Shown here: one piece after another, positions 8,519-31,513 of the stretch | Layout of the letters: each line of letters begins with the position of its first letter | Numbering within the stretch: position 1 is the stretch's first letter | Source of the DNA: a virus | DNA: 58,380 bases | Virus record (IMG/VR): IMGVR_UViG_3300022920_000255 | Span: 1 to 58,380 of that record | Strand: one strand, 5' to 3' | Notes under the pieces: model-generated | What the model was told of the DNA's origin: nothing | What the model saw: the letters and a program-made list of their open reading frames with translations, nothing else | Databases searched by the model: none | Program-made: the position numbers and the translations under genes

Positions 8519-8892
8519 ATCCGTACACTGTCCTGGGAATCAATAAATATAGTAGTAAGGAAGAAATACGGTTAGCGTATAAACGTCTTATGAAAAAGCA
8601 TCACCCTGATAGCGGAGACGGAAATACACAAAAACTAAATGAAGCTAAGTCTGCTTATACACAACTAAAAGATAAATCTATAAGGACTGCCTTGACAGTG
8701 GACATAGTTGTCCCTATAACACAAGCAGAATTAGCTTCATGTTTAGGACAAACAAAAACATTTGAAATACACGATGTGTTCTTTGAAGTTATTGTACCAT
8801 ACGAAACTAGAATGGGTGATACAATTATAGTGAAGAATATTCTTCCAGATACGATACTAAAGATTAAGTTTAAGGAAAAACATGAGCAATAA
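8515..8892 (+). CDS. Short J-domain (DnaJ-type) protein
   Basis: A 125-residue protein with an N-terminal J domain (residues 1-57: NPYTVLGINKYSSKEEIRLAY, then HHPDSGDG with the HPD motif intact), then a short beta-rich C-terminal part resembling one substrate-binding subdomain of DnaJ (VPITQAEL, VIVPYETRMGDTIIVKN). It has no zinc domain. The start shares ATGA with the spanin stop, and the end overlaps clpA by 11 bases, linking it to the unfoldase. It should activate host DnaK and may feed substrates to the ClpA product. Confidence 0.8.
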   Translation: MNPYTVLGINKYSSKEEIRLAYKRLMKKHHPDSGDGNTQKLNEAKSAYTQLKDKSIRTALTVDIVVPITQAELASCLGQTKTFEIHDVFFEVIVPYETRMGDTIIVKNILPDTILKIKFKEKHEQ

Positions 8893-11110
8893 TCAACCAG
8901 ATAGAGTTAATCTCTCACTTGAACGTGCTGTACAAAAAGCAACCGAATTATCACATGAATATGTGACTCTCGAACATTTGCTCTACGCAATAATTGAAGA
9001 ACGTGATGTATTAGAATTATTATCTAAGATGGAAGTAAATCTTCCTGAGGTTCTAATTGAACTTGAAGAATACCTAAGTGAACGTGATGATATTACAGTT
9101 CATGGTTCAGGCTTAGCACCGAGACAAACACTTTCAATTGACCGTGTATTCAATCGTGCTGTAACACAAGTTATTTTCAGTGGTCGTTCAAAATTGCATT
9201 GTCAGGATATACTTGTTTCTCTACTAAGTGAAACTAGTTCTATGGCATATCATATTCTACGTAAGAATGGCGGCAATCGCAGTAAAGCAGTTGAGATTAT
9301 TCAACGAGATTTCTATAAGCAATCCGGTACTGGAAGTCAAGTAGCACAAGGACAAGGAACAAGTGAGAAAGTTAAGTTTGAAGACTTTTGTGAAAACTTA
9401 AACAAATCTGCGGCTGAAGGAAAGATTGATCCTGTTATTGGACGTACAAATGAACTAGTCGAATTGACAGAAGTTCTAGCAAGACGTAAGAAGAACAATG
9501 TAATCATTGTTGGTGAGCCGGGCGTAGGTAAAACTGCTATCGCTGAAGGACTTGCACTTAATATTATCAATGACGAATGTCCAGATATTCTTAAAGGTAA
9601 GATTGTATATTCACTAGACGTTACATCACTTGTTGCTGGTACAAAGTATCGTGGTGAGTTTGAAGAACGTGCTAAAGAAATCTTTGGTCAGCTTGAAAAG
9701 AAAGATGATGTAATTCTATTCATCGATGAAATTCACATGATTATGGGTGCTGGTTCAGCAGGTGGTTCAAACATTGACATCGCTAACTTGTTGAAGCCAC
9801 TACTTGCTGGCGGCAAGCTACTAGTCATTGGTGCGACAACAAGTGAAGAATACAGAGAAAACTTTGAAAAAGACCGTGCGTTACAACGCCGCTTCCAGAA
9901 AGTTGTTGTTGAACAGCCAAGCAAAGAAGACACAAAGCTAATTGTCAAAGGCCTAAAGAAGTACTATGAAGAATTTCACGGACTTGAGTATGATGAAGAT
10001 GCAATGGACCTTGCAGTTGATTTAGCAGAACGTTACATGCATGGTAAATATAATCCAGATAGAGCAATCGATGTTATTGATGTGGCTGGCGCTCGTAACA
10101 AACTACACAAGATCGAAGGTAAGATTGGTCGTAATGCTATCGAAGCCGCAGTATCAAAAATTACACGTATCCCGATGGATATGATTGACGCAAAAGAGAA
10201 TGCTAATTTCTCAAGTCTAGAAACAAATATTAAGTCTAAGTTGTTTGGACAAGACAAAGCAGTTGGCGCACTAGTAGAATCTATTCTAGTAGCAAAGTCA
10301 GGTATGCGACCGACTAACAAACCAATCGGTTCATTCTTGTTCGTAGGACCAACTGGTACTGGTAAGACAGAACTATGTCGCCAGCTTGCGGCAAACTTAG
10401 ACGTAACACTAAGAAAATATGATATGTCCGAATACATGGAATCTCACTCAGTATCGAAACTGATTGGTGCCCCTCCAGGTTATGTAGGACATGCAGAAGG
10501 CGGCGCGGGCGCAGGCAAGTTAATCAATGATGTAGAAGAAACACCTAATTGTATTGTTCTACTTGATGAAGTCGAAAAGGCTCACCCAAGCGTAATGAAC
10601 CTCTTACTTCAAGTTATGGACGATGGTCGATTGACTAGTTCAACTGGTAAAACAGCAGACTTTAGTAATGTAATTCTTGTAATGACATCTAACTTGGGTG
10701 CCGCTCAAAAATCAAAACGTGCTATCGGGTTCAGTAATGACCACGATGATGCGTCAATGCAGGCAGTTAATAAGTTCTTCTCTCCTGAGTTTAGAAATAG
10801 ACTTGATGCAATGGTAGAATTTGTTGCACTACAGCGTGAACATATCGATATGATTGTTGACAAATCTATCAACGAACTTAACGAAATGCTGGCAGATAAG
10901 AATGTACGCATTGAGTTATCTCCAGAAGCAAAAGTTTGGATGCGTGAAAAGGGTTACATCCCAGATATGGGTGCGCGACCTCTACAACGTGTTATCAATG
11001 ATAATATCAAGAAGCCACTATCAAAAGAGATTTTGTTTGGTGCATTGATTGATGGTGGAATCGCACGTGTTGAAATAGTTGACGATGCCGTGACTTTCTC
11101 ATATGTCTAA
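8882..11110 (+). CDS. clpA: ClpA-type AAA+ unfoldase
   Basis: A 742-residue two-ring Clp/Hsp100 ATPase of ClpA layout: N-domain (1-150), D1 with GEPGVGKTAIAEG (about 210) and LFIDEIHMIMGAG, D2 with GPTGTGKTELCRQL (about 490) and VLLDEVEKAHP. There is no ClpB-type middle coiled coil, and the length matches E. coli ClpA (758). An IGF tripeptide at about 615-617, where ClpA has its ClpP-docking IGL loop, suggests that it docks on host ClpP. It may redirect host proteolysis during infection. Confidence 0.9.
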   Translation: MSNNQPDRVNLSLERAVQKATELSHEYVTLEHLLYAIIEERDVLELLSKMEVNLPEVLIELEEYLSERDDITVHGSGLAPRQTLSIDRVFNRAVTQVIFSGRSKLHCQDILVSLLSETSSMAYHILRKNGGNRSKAVEIIQRDFYKQSGTGSQVAQGQGTSEKVKFEDFCENLNKSAAEGKIDPVIGRTNELVELTEVLARRKKNNVIIVGEPGVGKTAIAEGLALNIINDECPDILKGKIVYSLDVTSLVAGTKYRGEFEERAKEIFGQLEKKDDVILFIDEIHMIMGAGSAGGSNIDIANLLKPLLAGGKLLVIGATTSEEYRENFEKDRALQRRFQKVVVEQPSKEDTKLIVKGLKKYYEEFHGLEYDEDAMDLAVDLAERYMHGKYNPDRAIDVIDVAGARNKLHKIEGKIGRNAIEAAVSKITRIPMDMIDAKENANFSSLETNIKSKLFGQDKAVGALVESILVAKSGMRPTNKPIGSFLFVGPTGTGKTELCRQLAANLDVTLRKYDMSEYMESHSVSKLIGAPPGYVGHAEGGAGAGKLINDVEETPNCIVLLDEVEKAHPSVMNLLLQVMDDGRLTSSTGKTADFSNVILVMTSNLGAAQKSKRAIGFSNDHDDASMQAVNKFFSPEFRNRLDAMVEFVALQREHIDMIVDKSINELNEMLADKNVRIELSPEAKVWMREKGYIPDMGARPLQRVINDNIKKPLSKEILFGALIDGGIARVEIVDDAVTFSYV

Positions 11111-24950: not shown

Positions 24951-25412
24951 ATGAAAAAGAATAACTTCAAATATCACTTGCGTGTTGGTCTAGATGAAGA
25001 ATTGAGTACACACGATATCAAAGGTATCATTACTGTACTTGAGAAAACAATCGCCAACATCTTTGAGGCATCTGAAGAAGGTACTGCGGTTATCTATCAT
25101 ACATTTAATAATAAGAACTTGTATGACTTTAGAATGAACCGCGCAGTAACAGAAGCAGAAGCAGAAGTTATTCTTTCATTAATCAACGAGTGGACTGAAG
25201 ATGACTATACAATGGAAATCACCACTAGTGAAAAATATGACTTACCAGAAGGTGAGATAGAAGCAGATATAACTGCTATGAAACATAATAGATGGCTTTC
25301 AGAGCGTGTTTCTGAAGGTTGGAGATATGGTCTAGAATTTAATGAATCAAGCAAGACGGACCCAAGACTAAGACCGTATCACGAATTGTCAGAAAAACTA
25401 AAAAATATGTAG
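24951..25412 (+). CDS. RyR-domain protein
   Basis: A 153-residue soluble protein. The C-terminal 45 residues (about 107-150: MKHNRWLSERVSEGWRYG, then KTDPRLRPYHELSEKLKN) match the ryanodine-receptor (RyR) repeat domain, which also occurs in bacterial and phage proteins, often with nucleotide-linked signalling. The N-terminal 100 residues are acidic and unassigned. It lies 2 bases after the membrane protein gene. Ligand and role are unknown. Confidence 0.65.
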   Translation: MKKNNFKYHLRVGLDEELSTHDIKGIITVLEKTIANIFEASEEGTAVIYHTFNNKNLYDFRMNRAVTEAEAEVILSLINEWTEDDYTMEITTSEKYDLPEGEIEADITAMKHNRWLSERVSEGWRYGLEFNESSKTDPRLRPYHELSEKLKNM

Positions 25413-25474: not shown

Positions 25475-26014
25475 ATGTCCGGAACAAAAAGAGTATATAA
25501 TCTAGAAGAAAAGAACTATTTCAAGTTCTTTGGGATCGAAGAAAAGCAAGATATTAGTGTGCGAAGTCTTACTACGCATTATAAAAAAATTGTAACCCTA
25601 CTCAAACAAGATAACAAGTTTTTAAGTAAAGATAAGGTAGCATTTGCACATCGTGCATTTGAAACACTTGCTGATCCAATCAGTCGTGCTAAATATATTT
25701 TAGAACTAAATGGTGTAGAAAATGATGTGAGAGATGGCGCATCCGCAGAAGATTTTTTGTTTATAAATAACTTGAATGCGCAGTACGATGCATCCAATAC
25801 AGTTGACGACATTCTGAATTTCATTCTAGAACTAAAAGAACAGACTTCATTCATCAAAGAACAAATTCAGTATTGTATTGATGAAACCCATAACTTTAAT
25901 ATGGCATCTGGGCTATTGAACCGGTTCTATGAAATCTCAGCAATACATGATAAAACAAAATTAAAGAAACATGAACTAGAACTAGGAATCAAACATGTTG
26001 TATTTGACAAATGA
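25475..26014 (+). CDS. HscB-like Fe-S co-chaperone lacking HPD
   Basis: A 179-residue protein of the HscB type by layout: an N-terminal J-like domain (YFKFFGIEEKQDISVRSL, HYKKIVTLL), the linker LADPISRAKYILELNGV that is diagnostic of HscB, then a C-terminal three-helix region (DFLFINNLNAQYD onward). In HscB this part binds IscU. The HPD tripeptide that stimulates HscA is missing (LLKQDNK is present there), so the protein may bind the scaffold without driving the chaperone. It overlaps the IscA-like gene by 20 bases. Confidence 0.7.
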   Translation: MSGTKRVYNLEEKNYFKFFGIEEKQDISVRSLTTHYKKIVTLLKQDNKFLSKDKVAFAHRAFETLADPISRAKYILELNGVENDVRDGASAEDFLFINNLNAQYDASNTVDDILNFILELKEQTSFIKEQIQYCIDETHNFNMASGLLNRFYEISAIHDKTKLKKHELELGIKHVVFDK

Positions 26015-26318
26015 CGCTGAAAAACGTATCATTAAATGGCTAGCAGATAACAACGCAAAATCAATTAAAATCTCAATGAAGACCGCAGGCTGTACAGGAC
26101 TAATGTATGAAGTTGTGATTGCTGATGGTTTTAATCCTACTACAGATTTTGCATCTAAATTTGATGGCTTTGATATTATTATCGAACATCAATATCTACA
26201 TGCACTTAAAGGTGCAACGTTAGATTACATAACAGAAGGTTTTAACTCACACTTTGAAATCGTTAATAATCCTAATGAGAAAGCAAAGTGTGGCTGTGGA
26301 GAAAGTTTTTCAGTATGA
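25995..26318 (+). CDS. IscA-like A-type Fe-S carrier
   Basis: A 107-residue A-type carrier (IscA/ErpA/SufA family). The three cluster-binding cysteines are present: one in KTAGCTGLMYEV and two in the C-terminal CGCGESF. The length equals E. coli IscA (107). It shares ATGA with the next A-type carrier gene. A-type carriers receive Fe-S clusters from the scaffold and pass them to client enzymes. Confidence 0.88.
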   Translation: MLYLTNDAEKRIIKWLADNNAKSIKISMKTAGCTGLMYEVVIADGFNPTTDFASKFDGFDIIIEHQYLHALKGATLDYITEGFNSHFEIVNNPNEKAKCGCGESFSV

Positions 26319-26638
26319 TATTTACAGAAGCGGCGGCTGAACGTGTTAAAGAAATTATCGTAGAACAAGATGAATCACCAGATACCTCATTGCGAGTATT
26401 TGTTGAAGGTGGTGGGTGCCATGGGTTTAGTTATGGATTCGGCTTCGAAGCTGATATAGCAGATGACGATACTATATACGAAACCAACGATGTTAAATTA
26501 GTAGTTGACAGTATGAGCATTATGTATCTAGATAGTGCAACTGTAGATTTTGTATCTAGTATACATGGTGACAGATTCGTTATTGACAATCCAAGTGCAA
26601 GCACAACATGCGGTTGCGGATCTAGCTTTTCAGTTTAA
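26315..26638 (+). CDS. erpA: ErpA-like A-type Fe-S carrier
   Basis: A 107-residue second A-type carrier, closest to ErpA: FVEGGGCHGFSYGFGFE, VVDSMSIMYLDSATVDF and the C-terminal STCGCGSSFSV block, nearly the same as E. coli ErpA. The ATG at 26315 overlaps the previous stop; an upstream in-frame ATG at 26288 would lie inside the IscA-like gene and is not favoured. ErpA delivers clusters to essential 4Fe-4S proteins. Two different carriers in one phage suggest separate clients. Confidence 0.88.
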   Translation: MIFTEAAAERVKEIIVEQDESPDTSLRVFVEGGGCHGFSYGFGFEADIADDDTIYETNDVKLVVDSMSIMYLDSATVDFVSSIHGDRFVIDNPSASTTCGCGSSFSV

Positions 26639-26652
26639 ATTAAGGAAACGAA

Positions 26653-26892
26653 ATGACAATTAAAGAAAAAATTTATGAAATCGTTGCAAGACGAACTAAA
26701 ACAAATATTTCTGATCTTGATAACGATATGAGTTTAAAAAAGGATCTTGGTGCAGACAGCATAGATACCGTAGAAATTATGTTTGATATTGAAGAATATT
26801 ATACCATATCAATTGATGATATAGATGCTGAAACGATAAATACAATTGACGATGCAATAAATATTGTAACAAAATTAGTCGAAAGTGGCTAA
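26653..26892 (+). CDS. Acyl carrier protein
   Basis: A 79-residue acyl carrier protein (E. coli AcpP is 78). The phosphopantetheine site is LGADSIDTVEI with the Ser that carries the 4'-phosphopantetheine arm; the protein is acidic with the usual four-helix pattern. It sits 14 bases after the ErpA-like gene. In bacteria ACP contacts IscS and in mitochondria it supports Fe-S assembly, so its place in this operon could be functional; lipid or LPS acylation is the alternative. Confidence 0.88.
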   Translation: MTIKEKIYEIVARRTKTNISDLDNDMSLKKDLGADSIDTVEIMFDIEEYYTISIDDIDAETINTIDDAINIVTKLVESG

Positions 26893-26909: not shown

Positions 26910-27368
26910 ATGATATTCCTAAGATGGTGGTTATTCTTCTGCCTAACAATCTTAGTAGCAACAGTTAGTTACTACTTTGGTTTTTTCAATGAACTATATA
27001 ATAAAGATGCAACAAGATTAAGTTTCGTTATTATCGCAATATATATTGTGGCATCACTATACGTTGGTATGCTAACTAACAATCAACGTATCGGCAGAGA
27101 CTATAAAACCGGAACAAATGTATCTTGGTTTGCAAGTGAAATGCTATTATCACTTGGTATGATTGGTACCGTCGCTGGTTTTATCTTAATGTTGGGTGAT
27201 AGCTTTGGTTCTATCGATACAGCTAATCCAGAAACATTAAAAGAAGCATTAAGTTCAATGGCTCTTGGTATGAGTACAGCACTATATACAACACTAGTAG
27301 GGCTAATCCTTAGTCAGGCTCTAAAGATTCAACTTGTTAATCTAGAGTCTGGAGCGGAGAATGACTAA
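26910..27368 (+). CDS. MotA/TolQ/ExbB-like proton-channel subunit
   Basis: A 152-residue membrane protein with four likely membrane segments (about 2-21, 36-55, 76-98, 112-135). The family signature is present in TM3 (LGMIGTVAGFILML) and TM4 (ALGMSTALYTTLVGLILS), with the Thr residues that line the proton path in ExbB/TolQ. It is shorter than ExbB (244), lacking much of the cytoplasmic part. It overlaps the ExbD-like gene by 8 bases. Together they likely form a proton-driven inner-membrane motor. Confidence 0.78.
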   Translation: MIFLRWWLFFCLTILVATVSYYFGFFNELYNKDATRLSFVIIAIYIVASLYVGMLTNNQRIGRDYKTGTNVSWFASEMLLSLGMIGTVAGFILMLGDSFGSIDTANPETLKEALSSMALGMSTALYTTLVGLILSQALKIQLVNLESGAEND

Positions 27369-28023
27369 GCGTAACAATGATAGATTTAAGAGTACTACCG
27401 GTCTAAATGACTTGTTATTCAATCTTCTTGTCGGCTTTGTGTTCCTATTCATCGTAGCATTTCTACTAATTAATCCACCAACTAAAAAAGAAGACGCACC
27501 AAAAAAAGCTGAATATTTGATTATTATTGAGTGGGATGAAACTGCAAATGATGATGTTGACTTATGGGTCAGAGATCCACAAGGTGTAACAGTATCGTTT
27601 ACAAATAAGACTGGCGGACTACTCAACTTAGAAAAAGATGACCTTGGTATGTCCAACGATAAATGGCGCAAACCAGACGGCACTGTAGTTACTATCCCAA
27701 TCAATCGTGAAGTTATTACAATGCGTGGTATTGTGCCTGGTAGATATCAAGTTGCGGCGCATATCTATAGTAGAAAAATAAAATTATATACTTTACCAGA
27801 TGGCAGGAAAAGAGGTGAAAGAGATACTACACCGGGAACTATCATTGCTACGTTAGTTAAGATTAATCCTTACGGTGAAGTATATACAACAGTACGCCAA
27901 TATGATGCTAAAGGACAAGTATTCCCACTATTTAATTTTGAGATAGACGCAGATGGAAAACTTATTGCACTTGATGAAGACAAAAATAATATTGTTATGA
28001 ACAGAAACGGAGCCGGCGAATAG
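27361..28023 (+). CDS. ExbD/MotB-like subunit with large periplasmic domain
   Basis: A 220-residue protein with a short basic N-terminus, one membrane segment (about 20-40) and a periplasmic domain. The membrane start GLNDLLFNLLVGFVFLF places D17 like the proton-carrying Asp of ExbD/MotB. The periplasmic part (EWDETANDDVDLWVRDPQG onward, with a basic RKRGERD loop) has beta-sandwich character like DUF2135-type domains, not the OmpA peptidoglycan-binding domain of MotB. The natural partner is the upstream ExbB-like protein. Confidence 0.7.
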   Translation: MTKRNNDRFKSTTGLNDLLFNLLVGFVFLFIVAFLLINPPTKKEDAPKKAEYLIIIEWDETANDDVDLWVRDPQGVTVSFTNKTGGLLNLEKDDLGMSNDKWRKPDGTVVTIPINREVITMRGIVPGRYQVAAHIYSRKIKLYTLPDGRKRGERDTTPGTIIATLVKINPYGEVYTTVRQYDAKGQVFPLFNFEIDADGKLIALDEDKNNIVMNRNGAGE

Positions 28024-28677
28024 ATGGATTACATACCAGCATATAACTTTGACTTACTGCCTATATTACTAAGTATTGTATTTCTTTCAATCGTAGTACT
28101 ATGGGTGGCTATTAAAAATTATCAGAATTTTCTATTGATGTTCTTAATTATACCACTAACTATCTTTAGTGGTTGGACTGCGTACTCTACTGTTGATAAT
28201 CTATTAGGATATCCTGTATTAGATGAAGTACAGCCTGACTCATTTTACATAACACATCTAGACGACCCAATGGGAGATTTTATATTTGTTTGGTTAGTTG
28301 TACCTGGCGAGTTAAAGCCAAAATCTATTATGGTAGTTAATTCAAAAGAAAATAAAGAAGCGTTGGAAGAAGCTAAAGAACAACAAGAAAAAGGCATTCC
28401 ACAAATGCTAAGGCAAAATTTGGAAAAGGGACAAGGGCAAACTCGAGGTGGCGAACTAGAAAGCTACGACTTTCAACAGCAAGGAGTCGAAGCAATGAAA
28501 GATGAACAACGTCAGCGAGAGGAAAATGAAGAACCTCGACAGCTACCTGGAAAAGCGGGTAGAACATTAGATACTCCACCAGTTGTCGATGGACGTCCTA
28601 CATTAGATGCAAAAAGCAAATCTGAAATACCAGAGTCATATCGTTTTATTAGAGAATTTAACGTAGGCGGAAAATAA
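28024..28677 (+). CDS. Third membrane protein of the ExbB/ExbD-like cassette
   Basis: A 217-residue protein with two N-terminal membrane segments (about 11-29, 34-53) followed by a short beta region and a long charged, Gln/Glu-rich tail (about 115-217) with predicted coiled coil. The start directly abuts the ExbD-like stop, so the three genes form one translated unit. No known family is recognised. The charged tail may reach a partner that the motor works on. Confidence 0.6.
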   Translation: MDYIPAYNFDLLPILLSIVFLSIVVLWVAIKNYQNFLLMFLIIPLTIFSGWTAYSTVDNLLGYPVLDEVQPDSFYITHLDDPMGDFIFVWLVVPGELKPKSIMVVNSKENKEALEEAKEQQEKGIPQMLRQNLEKGQGQTRGGELESYDFQQQGVEAMKDEQRQREENEEPRQLPGKAGRTLDTPPVVDGRPTLDAKSKSEIPESYRFIREFNVGGK

Positions 28678-29750: not shown

Positions 29751-29826
29751 TCCCTGTTAGCTCAGTTGGTAGAGCAACTGACTGTTAATCAGTTTGTCGC
29801 TGGTTCGAGCCCAGCACAGGGAGCCA
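29751..29826 (+). tRNA. tRNA-Asn (GTT)
   Basis: Acceptor TCCCTGT/ACAGGGA, anticodon loop CTGTTAA, G73, encoded CCA. First tRNA of the array. Confidence 0.95.
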
Positions 29827-29834
29827 TTTATTAC

Positions 29835-29925
29835 GGAGAGGTGGCAGAGCGGTTTAATGCACTGGTCTTGAAAACCAGCGTGGGTGAATAGTCCACCGTG
29901 GGTTCAAATCCCACCCTCTCCGCCA
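29835..29925 (+). tRNA. tRNA-Ser (TGA)
   Basis: Class II tRNA with a long variable arm; acceptor GGAGAGG/CCTCTCC, anticodon loop CTTGAAA (TGA), G73, encoded CCA. Confidence 0.95.
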
Positions 29926-29951
29926 GAATAAATTATCACTATACCAAAAGT

Positions 29952-29959
29952 GATAAATA
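29952..29959 (+). promoter_or_regulatory. Late-type promoter GATAAATA inside the tRNA array
   Basis: Octamer in copy 2 of the 24-bp repeat, 18 bases before tRNA-Thr. It could give late transcription of the downstream tRNAs. Confidence 0.45.
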
Positions 29960-29976
29960 AAAGTAGAAGTTAATAA
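29953..29976 (+). repeat. 24-bp direct repeat, copy 2
   Basis: Same 24 bases as 29322-29345, ending one base before the preceding context of tRNA-Thr. Confidence 0.8.
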
Positions 29977-29977
29977 T

Positions 29978-30053
29978 GCTCCTATAGCTCAGTTGGTAGA
30001 GCAACTGATTTGTAATCAGTAGGTCCGCGGTTCAAGTCCGTGTGGGAGCACCA
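29978..30053 (+). tRNA. tRNA-Thr (TGT)
   Basis: Acceptor GCTCCTA/TGGGAGC, anticodon loop TTTGTAA, A73, encoded CCA. Confidence 0.95.
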
Positions 30054-30059
30054 TCTTAT

Positions 30060-30106
30060 GACCCAAGGTCACTGTACTGGTCTTGTCACCTGTATACACC
30101 TGGGTC
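30060..30106 (+). other. Hairpin spacer between tRNA-Thr and tRNA-Leu
   Basis: GACCCA/TGGGTC extended by GGT/ACC around a bulged A forms a stem about 9 bp long. It may guide tRNA precursor processing. Confidence 0.4.
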
Positions 30107-30117
30107 TTCCTAATAAT

Positions 30118-30202
30118 GCGCCTGTGGTGAAATTGGTAGACACGCTAGATTTAGGTTCTAGTGCTTTACGGCGTGGGGGTTCAAGTCCCTCCAGGCGCAC
30201 CA
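30118..30202 (+). tRNA. tRNA-Leu (TAG)
   Basis: Class II; acceptor GCGCCTG/CAGGCGC, anticodon loop TTTAGGT (TAG), A73, encoded CCA. Confidence 0.95.
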
Positions 30203-30219
30203 AATGTTTAACATAGCCA

Positions 30220-30299
30220 AGGTCCTAGACGTTGTGAAGCTACAGGCTTTGTATGTAGTTAGAAAGCTAGGAGACCTGTCAGTAGGGTCTAAACTGACA
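30220..30299 (+). other. Structured spacer RNA between tRNA-Leu and tRNA-Ala
   Basis: AGGTCCTAG (30220) pairs with CTAGGAGACCT (30267) with a bulge; inside, CTACA/TGTAG forms a small hairpin. A perfect 7-bp hairpin TGTCAGT/ACTGACA (30277, 30293) follows. It is not a recognisable tRNA; possibly a decayed one or a processing signal. Confidence 0.4.
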
Positions 30300-30306
30300 C
30301 TCATTC

Positions 30307-30382
30307 GGGGGTTTAGCTCAGTTGGGAGAGCGATTGCTTTGCAAGCAATAGGTCATCGGTTCGATCCCGGTAACCTCCACCA
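30307..30382 (+). tRNA. tRNA-Ala (TGC)
   Basis: Acceptor GGGGGTT/AACCTCC (one G-T pair), anticodon loop TTTGCAA, A73, encoded CCA. Confidence 0.95.
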
Positions 30383-30386
30383 TATA

Positions 30387-30475
30387 TGTCAATGCAGGTT
30401 AGCTAACAGTAACAGATATTTCAGCAGGCGTAAATATCAATTCTGTGGTAAGGTTCGAGTCCTCAATTGACACCA
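30387..30475 (+). ncRNA. tRNA-like element 1 (non-canonical)
   Basis: An 89-base element ending in CCA with a perfect 7-bp acceptor TGTCAAT/ATTGACA and a T-arm with loop TTCGAGT. The rest departs from a tRNA: the D-arm-like hairpin GTTA/TAAC has loop GCTAACAG without the GG pair, and the central hairpin GATATTT/AAATATC carries a 10-base loop (CAGCAGGCGT) in place of 7. It shares sequence with elements at 31687 and 32166. A normal anticodon cannot be assigned. Confidence 0.65.
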
Positions 30476-30483
30476 AAATACTC

Positions 30484-30539
30484 CTACTGTTATGCTGCAT
30501 CATTGTAATAGTAGGGAAGGGGCACAATGCAGGTGCTCC
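30484..30539 (+). other. Two hairpins before tRNA-Gly
   Basis: CTACTGTTA/TAATAGTAG (30484, 30506; 9 pairs with one G-T) and GGGGCAC/GTGCTCC (30519, 30533; 7 pairs, 7-base loop AATGCAG). Structured spacer of unknown role. Confidence 0.4.
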
Positions 30540-30548
30540 GAGAGATTT

Positions 30549-30623
30549 GCGGGTGTAGCTCAGTGGTAGAGCATTTCGTTGCCAACGAAAATGTCGTCAG
30601 TTCGATCCTGATCACCCGCTCCA
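30549..30623 (+). tRNA. tRNA-Gly (GCC)
   Basis: Acceptor GCGGGTG/CACCCGC, anticodon loop TTGCCAA, T73, encoded CCA. Confidence 0.95.
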
Positions 30624-30628
30624 AGATT

Positions 30629-30704
30629 GCGAGATTAGCTCAGTTGGTAGAGCGCCTGCTTTACACGCAGGATGTCAGGAGTTCAAGTCTCTTATCTCGC
30701 ACCA
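30629..30704 (+). tRNA. tRNA-Val (TAC)
   Basis: Acceptor GCGAGAT/ATCTCGC, anticodon loop TTTACAC, A73, encoded CCA. Confidence 0.95.
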
Positions 30705-30710
30705 GCTTAC

Positions 30711-30787
30711 AGAGACATAGCTCAGTTGGTTAGAGCATTCGCCTGATAAGCGAAAGGTCGGTGGTTCGAGTCCACTTGTCTCTACCA
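30711..30787 (+). tRNA. tRNA-Ile (GAT)
   Basis: Acceptor AGAGACA/TGTCTCT, anticodon loop CTGATAA, A73, encoded CCA. Confidence 0.95.
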
Positions 30788-30809
30788 TGTGACAATAAAT
30801 TACAACTAC

Positions 30810-30886
30810 GCGGTTGTAGCTCAGTTGGTTAGAGTATCGGCCTGTCACGCCGAGGGTCGCGGGTTCGAGTCCCGTCAACCGCGCCA
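30810..30886 (+). tRNA. tRNA-Asp (GTC)
   Basis: Acceptor GCGGTTG/CAACCGC, anticodon loop CTGTCAC, G73, encoded CCA. Confidence 0.95.
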
Positions 30887-30897
30887 CTTATTACTAA

Positions 30898-30972
30898 TGG
30901 AACGTAGCATAATGGTAATGCATCGCTTTTTGGTAGCGCAGAGTATAGGTTCGAGTCCTATCGTTCCAGCCA
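30898..30972 (+). tRNA. tRNA-Gln (TTG)
   Basis: Acceptor TGGAACG/CGTTCCA, anticodon loop TTTTGGT, G73, encoded CCA. One mismatch closes the anticodon stem. Confidence 0.93.
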
Positions 30973-30988
30973 CTTTATTTTATAGTAC

Positions 30989-31063
30989 GCTCCCTTCGTC
31001 TATCGGTTAGGACGTCAGGTTTTCAACCTGAAAAGAGGGGTTCGATTCCCCTAGGGAGTACCA
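30989..31063 (+). tRNA. tRNA-Glu (TTC)
   Basis: Acceptor GCTCCCT/AGGGAGT (G1-T72 wobble), anticodon loop TTTTCAA, A73, encoded CCA. Confidence 0.95.
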
Positions 31064-31068
31064 TAAAA

Positions 31069-31076
31069 GATAAATA
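31069..31076 (+). promoter_or_regulatory. Late-type octamer GATAAATA
   Basis: Lies directly after tRNA-Glu and before an early-type promoter, so the micro-ORF unit that follows may have both early and late start sites. Confidence 0.45.
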
Positions 31077-31091
31077 ATTATAAGAAAGCAC

Positions 31092-31120
31092 TTGACATTC
31101 GGTACAACATGTACTATATT
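31092..31120 (+). promoter_or_regulatory. Sigma70-type promoter of the micro-ORF unit
   Basis: TTGACA 31092-31097 and TATATT 31115-31120, 17-base spacer. The predicted start is about 31127. Confidence 0.75.
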
Positions 31121-31148
31121 AAGTGTATAACAAAGAGAAAAGAATCAC

Positions 31149-31208
31149 ATGTCAAATACTACATCATATATATTAGGATGGCCGCCAAGAGATTGGGGAA
31201 TGTTTTGA
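31149..31208 (+). CDS. Micro-ORF, 19 residues
   Basis: ATG 31149 to TGA 31206, ending GWPPRDWGMF. It is the only sizeable open frame of a short transcript bounded by a good promoter (31092) and a strong terminator (31239). The ribosome site (AAGAGAAAAG) is weak. It may be a real peptide or a leader; the unit could instead produce a small RNA. Confidence 0.4.
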   Translation: MSNTTSYILGWPPRDWGMF

Positions 31209-31238
31209 CGTGACTTTTTAACAAAAGTTATTTTAAGC

Positions 31239-31273
31239 AAGCCCCTAGTGTTAATTCATTAGGGGCTTTTTTT
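31239..31273 (+). terminator. Rho-independent terminator
   Basis: AAGCCCCTA/TAGGGGCTT 9-bp stem followed by TTTTT. Confidence 0.9.
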
Positions 31274-31275
31274 AT

Positions 31276-31347
31276 AAACACACTATGTCCCACTGCAATG
31301 GGAAGTTTTGCAGAACATAGATCCCGAGGATTGAAGTTAGTGTGTTT
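31276..31347 (+). ncRNA. Pseudoknotted structured RNA before tRNA-Trp
   Basis: Outer stem AAACACA/TGTGTTT (10 bp if ACTA/TAGT is included; 31276, 31338). Inside, CTATGT/ACATAG (31283, 31315) encloses hairpin TCCCA/TGGGA (31288, 31299) whose loop CTGCAA (31293-31298) is the exact complement of TTGCAG (31308-31313), an H-type pseudoknot. A second small hairpin ATCC/GGAT follows. The class is unknown; preQ1 riboswitches were considered but no gene follows. Confidence 0.55.
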
Positions 31348-31356
31348 TTAAAAAAT

Positions 31357-31430
31357 GAGGGTGTAGTGAAATGGTATCACGGCTGTCTCCAAAACAGCAA
31401 GTAGGAGTTCGATTCTTCTCACCTTTGCCA
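31357..31430 (+). tRNA. tRNA-Trp (CCA)
   Basis: Acceptor GAGGGTG/CACCTTT with wobble pairs, anticodon loop CTCCAAA, G73, encoded CCA. Confidence 0.9.
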
Positions 31431-31436
31431 AAATTA

Positions 31437-31513
31437 CTCGGTGTAGCTTAGTATGGTAAAGCGCCTGGTTTGGGACCAGGAGACCGTAGGTTCAAATCCT
31501 ACCACCGAGACCA
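31437..31513 (+). tRNA. tRNA-Pro (TGG)
   Basis: Acceptor CTCGGTG/CACCGAG, anticodon loop TTTGGGA, A73, encoded CCA. Confidence 0.95.

Follow-up and report, generated by a model that had tools for sequence, protein, structure and literature searches.

The window, by which we mean the whole stretch of DNA analysed, is an entire IMG/VR virus record of 58,380 bases, described as a large marine phage, that also encodes a phage DNA polymerase, a tail fibre and an ATP-dependent protease. Within it we observed three genes, hereafter B, D and X, all on the plus strand, with B and D overlapping by 8 nt and X abutting D, and these are coupled and read as one unit. The overlapping and abutting arrangement described in the initial annotation was confirmed by the coordinates of the open reading frames. 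The genes of the trio and the annotated features around it were as follows.

8882-11110: ATP-dependent protease, 742 aa (phrog_4871, E 8e-254)
24951-25412: 153-aa protein with a RyR domain (PF02026, E 5.6e-10)
25995-26318: IscA-type iron-sulphur carrier gene 1 (PF01521, E 2e-9)
26288-26638: IscA-type iron-sulphur carrier gene 2, in tandem with the first (PF01521, E 1e-16)
26653-26892: acyl carrier protein, after the IscA pair (PF00550, E 3.5e-10)
26910..27368, plus strand: B, MotA/TolQ/ExbB-type channel subunit, 152 aa (PF01618 above cut-off)
27361..28023, plus strand: D, ExbD/TolR/MotB-type subunit, 220 aa (alignments, residue counts, AF2 model, PDB match)
28024..28677, plus strand: X, third subunit, 217 aa (AF2 model, alignments, conservation)
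29751-31513: array of 13 tRNA genes, directly downstream of the trio

Upstream of the IscA pair we recognised, by eye only and with no Pfam support, a J-domain HscB-like protein, and the genes from 25475 to 26892 are a possible phage Fe-S assembly set. The RyR-domain protein was retained in 8 related loci.

Features of the three proteins

B matched the Pfam family PF01618 (MotA_ExbB) with an E-value of 1.1e-6 (28.9 bits, cut-off 22.9). Models for ZorA, MotP and TolQ matched B weakly (E about 1e-6 to 1e-5 for ZorA), while a B profile searched against the PDB returned MotA and TolQ chains aligned over the pore helices, with weak E-values (0.01 and above). Four membrane helices were predicted from hydropathy, with a short cytoplasmic loop, about 20 residues of sequence between helices 2 and 3, and a C-terminus ending about 10-20 residues past the last helix. 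Three residues were highly conserved across 113 phage and bacterial homologues (T87, 99%; T128, 100%; D33, 99%); divergent B proteins of Rhizobium phages lack part of the pore motif, and one of these (L090) carries Ala at T87. Motors of this superfamily place a ring of Ser/Thr residues around the conserved Asp of the partner subunit (PMC11890865; PMC12204202), and T87 and T128 of B would face Asp17 of D. The earlier assignment of B as an ExbB/TolQ/MotA-type channel subunit is upheld by the score above the PF01618 cut-off and by the retention of both pore threonines.

D contains a single membrane helix (11-37) carrying Asp17, followed by a predicted periplasmic beta-sandwich domain, and the AF2 single-chain model reproduced both (pLDDT 86.8). 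Asp17 was present in all 59 phage D proteins and in 42 of 52 bacterial ones. In the other ten bacterial sequences, which form one related clade (L093, L094, L097, L099, L103-L107, L133), Val replaces Asp17 and Lys replaces an Asn four residues later. Some family members may therefore not conduct ions, and this clade may represent either a non-conducting motor or an altered ion path. No ExbD/TolR match for D was obtained in Pfam, PHROGs or NCBIfam, and no OmpA match in Pfam. Among PDB structures the D model was closest to 2qng (E 3e-4, TM-score 0.51 by target), whose function is unknown, and the PPC profile matched D only weakly (E 0.04), in agreement with a beta sandwich. A TerD-type, DUF2135-type or OmpA domain was considered and rejected, as profile support was absent. 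Seven residues (W58, D65, D67, D93, D94, G96, E117) were invariant across 111 phage and bacterial D sequences, which suggests a putative binding site, possibly for metal. The description of D as an ExbD/MotB-type subunit with a membrane Asp and a non-OmpA periplasmic domain was thus borne out by the phage Asp17 counts, the beta sandwich and the absence of OmpA.

Two membrane helices were predicted for X (7-31 and 36-61, from AF2 and hydropathy), followed by a folded alpha/beta domain at about 65-150 and a charged, low-confidence or disordered tail at 150-217 (AF2 single-chain pLDDT 76). Residues G62, W90, K/R100 and G124 were conserved from phages to bacteria. No significant family was found for X in Pfam, PHROGs, NCBIfam or PADLOC, and a fold search against the PDB yielded nothing better than chance. 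X had been described as a membrane protein with a long charged tail, which is correct for the protein in the window but not for the family, since the long tail occurs in only part of it and most homologues stop at about 150-170 aa.

Distribution in viruses and bacteria

The search with B gave 85 viral relatives, of which 80 were kept, representing 59 non-redundant loci. D adjoined B in all 80 fetched relatives; in the non-redundant set, B preceded D in 59 of 59 loci and X followed in 57, while the next commonest neighbour gene was observed in 21. Relative to three relatives, dN/dS was 0.07-0.11 for B, 0.10-0.15 for D and 0.16-0.31 for X, and purifying selection acts on all three genes. The constancy of D beside B and of X after them, together with the low dN/dS, indicates that the trio is more than a chance association, and the search for the same trio in other phages proposed in the initial annotation returned it in dozens of them. 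IscA neighbours were found in only about 10 of the 59 loci, and a fixed linkage to iron-sulphur genes as a general rule was rejected on this count.

Cultured carriers in the phage collection were Rhizobium/Sinorhizobium phages, including T4-like Pootjesviridae and the temperate phage 16-3; named examples among the Rhizobium phages are P10VF, RL38J1, AF3 and 16-3 itself. The 16-3 trio corresponds to p038, p040 and p042 and sits upstream of the attachment site, and in the T4-like carriers the trio lies among replication genes. Neighbours in the lytic Rhizobium phages and marine contigs included DNA polymerase, clamp, late sigma, topoisomerase, helicase or tRNA genes, several of the marine ones being identified by visual inspection of the sequence.

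Bacterial genomes scanned with D yielded 28 loci, including Devosia, Rhodospirillales, Salinisphaera and Oceanobacter. We observed D matches in 65 of 385 genomes of an alphaproteobacterial class sample (about 56, or about 15%, with E <1e-15) and in 42 of 369 genomes of a gammaproteobacterial one (about 40 strong, 11%). The B-D-X order was found in nearly all loci with callable genes in both classes, and bacterial B was also above the PF01618 cut-off. Profiles of the phage and bacterial trios matched each other mutually, and combined profiles reached E-values of 1e-86 for D and 1e-52 for X. Many Alpha- and Gammaproteobacteria carry the trio as an operon on the chromosome, a finding new here. 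These operons led us to reject a phage-only cassette, and the phage copy is most plausibly one that phages share with their hosts or acquired from them. One locus (L167:6018-7254) carries two tandem D genes with no B or X called beside them; a complete trio lies elsewhere in the same genome (L168).

In most bacterial B proteins, helices 2 and 3 are separated by additional cytoplasmic sequence that is missing from phage B, while short, phage-like B proteins were observed in three loci from genomes of 0.9-1.1 Mb and 28-29% GC. In many gammaproteobacterial loci X is followed by a lipoprotein gene of about 240 aa, DUF3108-like (one of four matches above cut-off), which the phage version lacks. Examples are listed below.

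L096:11102-11833: lipoprotein gene after X
L098:11092-11856: lipoprotein gene after X
L132:2637-3380: lipoprotein gene after X

In a tree built from the PF01618 proteins of six genomes and the B proteins of phages, every B protein of a trio fell into one clade (support 96), apart from the TolQ-, ExbB- and MotA-type paralogues encoded in the same genomes. This clade remained separate when ZorA-like proteins were added (support 86), with the latter nearest to it under midpoint rooting. The D tree grouped 16-3 with Azospirillum (support 100) and the phages L063 and L070 with the small-genome bacteria (support 86), while the main marine phage clade, as a single group of all marine phage D proteins, had a low support of 53. 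The placements of 16-3 and of L063/L070 show that the phage copies are not of single origin; phages acquired the trio more than once.

Relation to known motors and possible purpose

The trio belongs to the PF01618 superfamily and would operate in the manner of Tol, Ton and Mot motors but, by defining features, lies outside Ton, Tol, Mot and Zorya. It resembles Tol and Ton in combining a ring subunit with pore threonines, a partner with a membrane Asp, a third membrane protein reaching the periplasm and, sometimes, a neighbouring lipoprotein. However, D has no ExbD/TolR match, B stands in a clade apart from TolQ and ExbB of the same genomes, and X, with its two helices and small folded domain, is not a rod like TonB or TolA. 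The four membrane helices of B and, in bacterial B, the cytoplasmic insert separating helix 2 from helix 3 recall MotA-MotB and PomA-PomB, although phage B is without this loop, D has no OmpA peptidoglycan-binding domain and a flagellar context is absent. Likeness to Zorya consists of the weak similarity between B and ZorA, whereas the long cytoplasmic ZorA tail, the OmpA-like ZorB domain and a ZorC/D/E effector are all wanting. Membership in Zorya was rejected on these features and on the separate B clade, in agreement with the initial annotation, which had set the trio apart from that system. The vWA-linked TolQ-type motors described by genomics (PMC12204202) are uncharacterised motors of 5:2 type with a conserved Asp/Thr ion path, as the trio would be, but the D axle of the trio bears a beta sandwich instead of a vWA domain and a dedicated third subunit, X, is present.

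The superfamily and motor identity of the trio are well supported, and its purpose is a matter of inference. Given the ion path, the gene order, the selection on the genes and the bacterial relatives, an ion-driven motor with a third subunit is by far the likeliest identity, and the original proposal, an ion motor like ExbB/ExbD joined by a third membrane protein, is supported by PF01618, Asp17, the pore threonines and X. By homology, B subunits would form a ring channel with two D helices as its axle, in an assumed stoichiometry of five B to two D, the AF2 models being of single chains. Ions, presumably protons or sodium, would pass Asp17 of D against T87 and T128 of the B ring and so move the periplasmic beta sandwich of D. 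X, beside the motor and with a periplasmic domain of its own, may act as a coupler relaying this movement toward the outer membrane. In many bacteria the lipoprotein encoded next to X would form the far end; this neighbour suggests coupling between inner and outer membranes, as in Tol and Ton. On balance, and with modest confidence, we regard the trio as the phage's version of an ion-driven envelope motor that bacteria also have and that is as yet unnamed. During infection it probably energises or stabilises some outer-envelope function of the host, in an auxiliary capacity rather than as a means of lysis. A bolder reading, which we put forward tentatively as somewhat less probable than not, is that a complete rotary motor driven by ions, of an undescribed class, is encoded by viruses. 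It would be a 5:2 family of its own, with a third subunit, and would draw on the host ion gradient to change the envelope during infection, for example by excluding rivals or keeping the outer membrane working.

Other purposes were weighed against this auxiliary envelope role. In superinfection exclusion, an inner-membrane motor would block or sense the entry of DNA from competing phages, in the manner of Zorya ZorAB but for the phage. The weak similarity of B to ZorA models, the position of ZorA-like proteins nearest the B clade under midpoint rooting and the temperate 16-3, with its trio upstream of the attachment site, all lend this some weight. No nuclease or ZorC/D/E-type gene recurred beside the trio in the 59 non-redundant loci, however, and the bacterial operons examined had no recognised defence gene next to them; D does not bear an OmpA domain for binding peptidoglycan, and the T4-like carriers hold the trio among replication genes. 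We consider exclusion unlikely. We judged subversion of a host motor improbable as well. Here phage B and D would mix into the B-D-X complex of the host and change or poison its action, for instance where the operon is protective. In favour of this are the commonness of homologous operons in proteobacteria and the cytoplasmic loop that most bacterial B proteins have and phage B lacks. Yet almost every phage copy retains the ion-path residues, the trio is retained whole instead of as a single subunit, and the small-genome bacteria of 28% GC have a B nearly as short.

A role for the trio in lysis, one of the suggestions of the initial annotation, is disfavoured. Membrane proteins serve lysis in phages, and two proteins with predicted periplasmic domains could reach the outer envelope as an ion-gradient-powered device for lysis or outer-membrane disruption. 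No recognised lysis cassette was observed around the trio, though, where the neighbour clusters comprised replication, sigma and unknown genes; the context of replication, late-sigma and tRNA genes and the maintenance of the same operon on bacterial chromosomes both speak against such a device. The sole lysis-type enzyme found, an M15 peptidase in two 342-kb relatives, is separated from D by about 135 and 97 kb. The endolysin search covered two families, one of them without a positive control; GH108 gave no match, but its control was silent too, and this result carries no weight. We hold a lysis device to be very unlikely. Nearly as doubtful is TonB-like uptake, in which the motor would energise an outer-membrane transporter, for example for iron. 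This would fit the two IscA-type genes just upstream (PF01521) and a SufB-like gene seen by eye near the bacterial trio of L164, but IscA neighbours are confined to the few loci noted above and the genes flanking the trio included no recognised TonB or transporter gene.

Ion-driven 5:2 motors form a small set, each member powering a major envelope process. The motor that the trio would form is unnamed in Pfam, PHROGs, NCBIfam and PADLOC and was not found in the literature searched, and a literature search on phage ExbB/ExbD-type genes returned nothing relevant. The cultured Rhizobium phages that carry the trio make its function directly testable, and the invariant membrane Asp of phage D offers a clean point mutant. 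If our reading is true, the trio would represent a further family of 5:2 motors, widespread in proteobacteria and carried by phages of several lineages.
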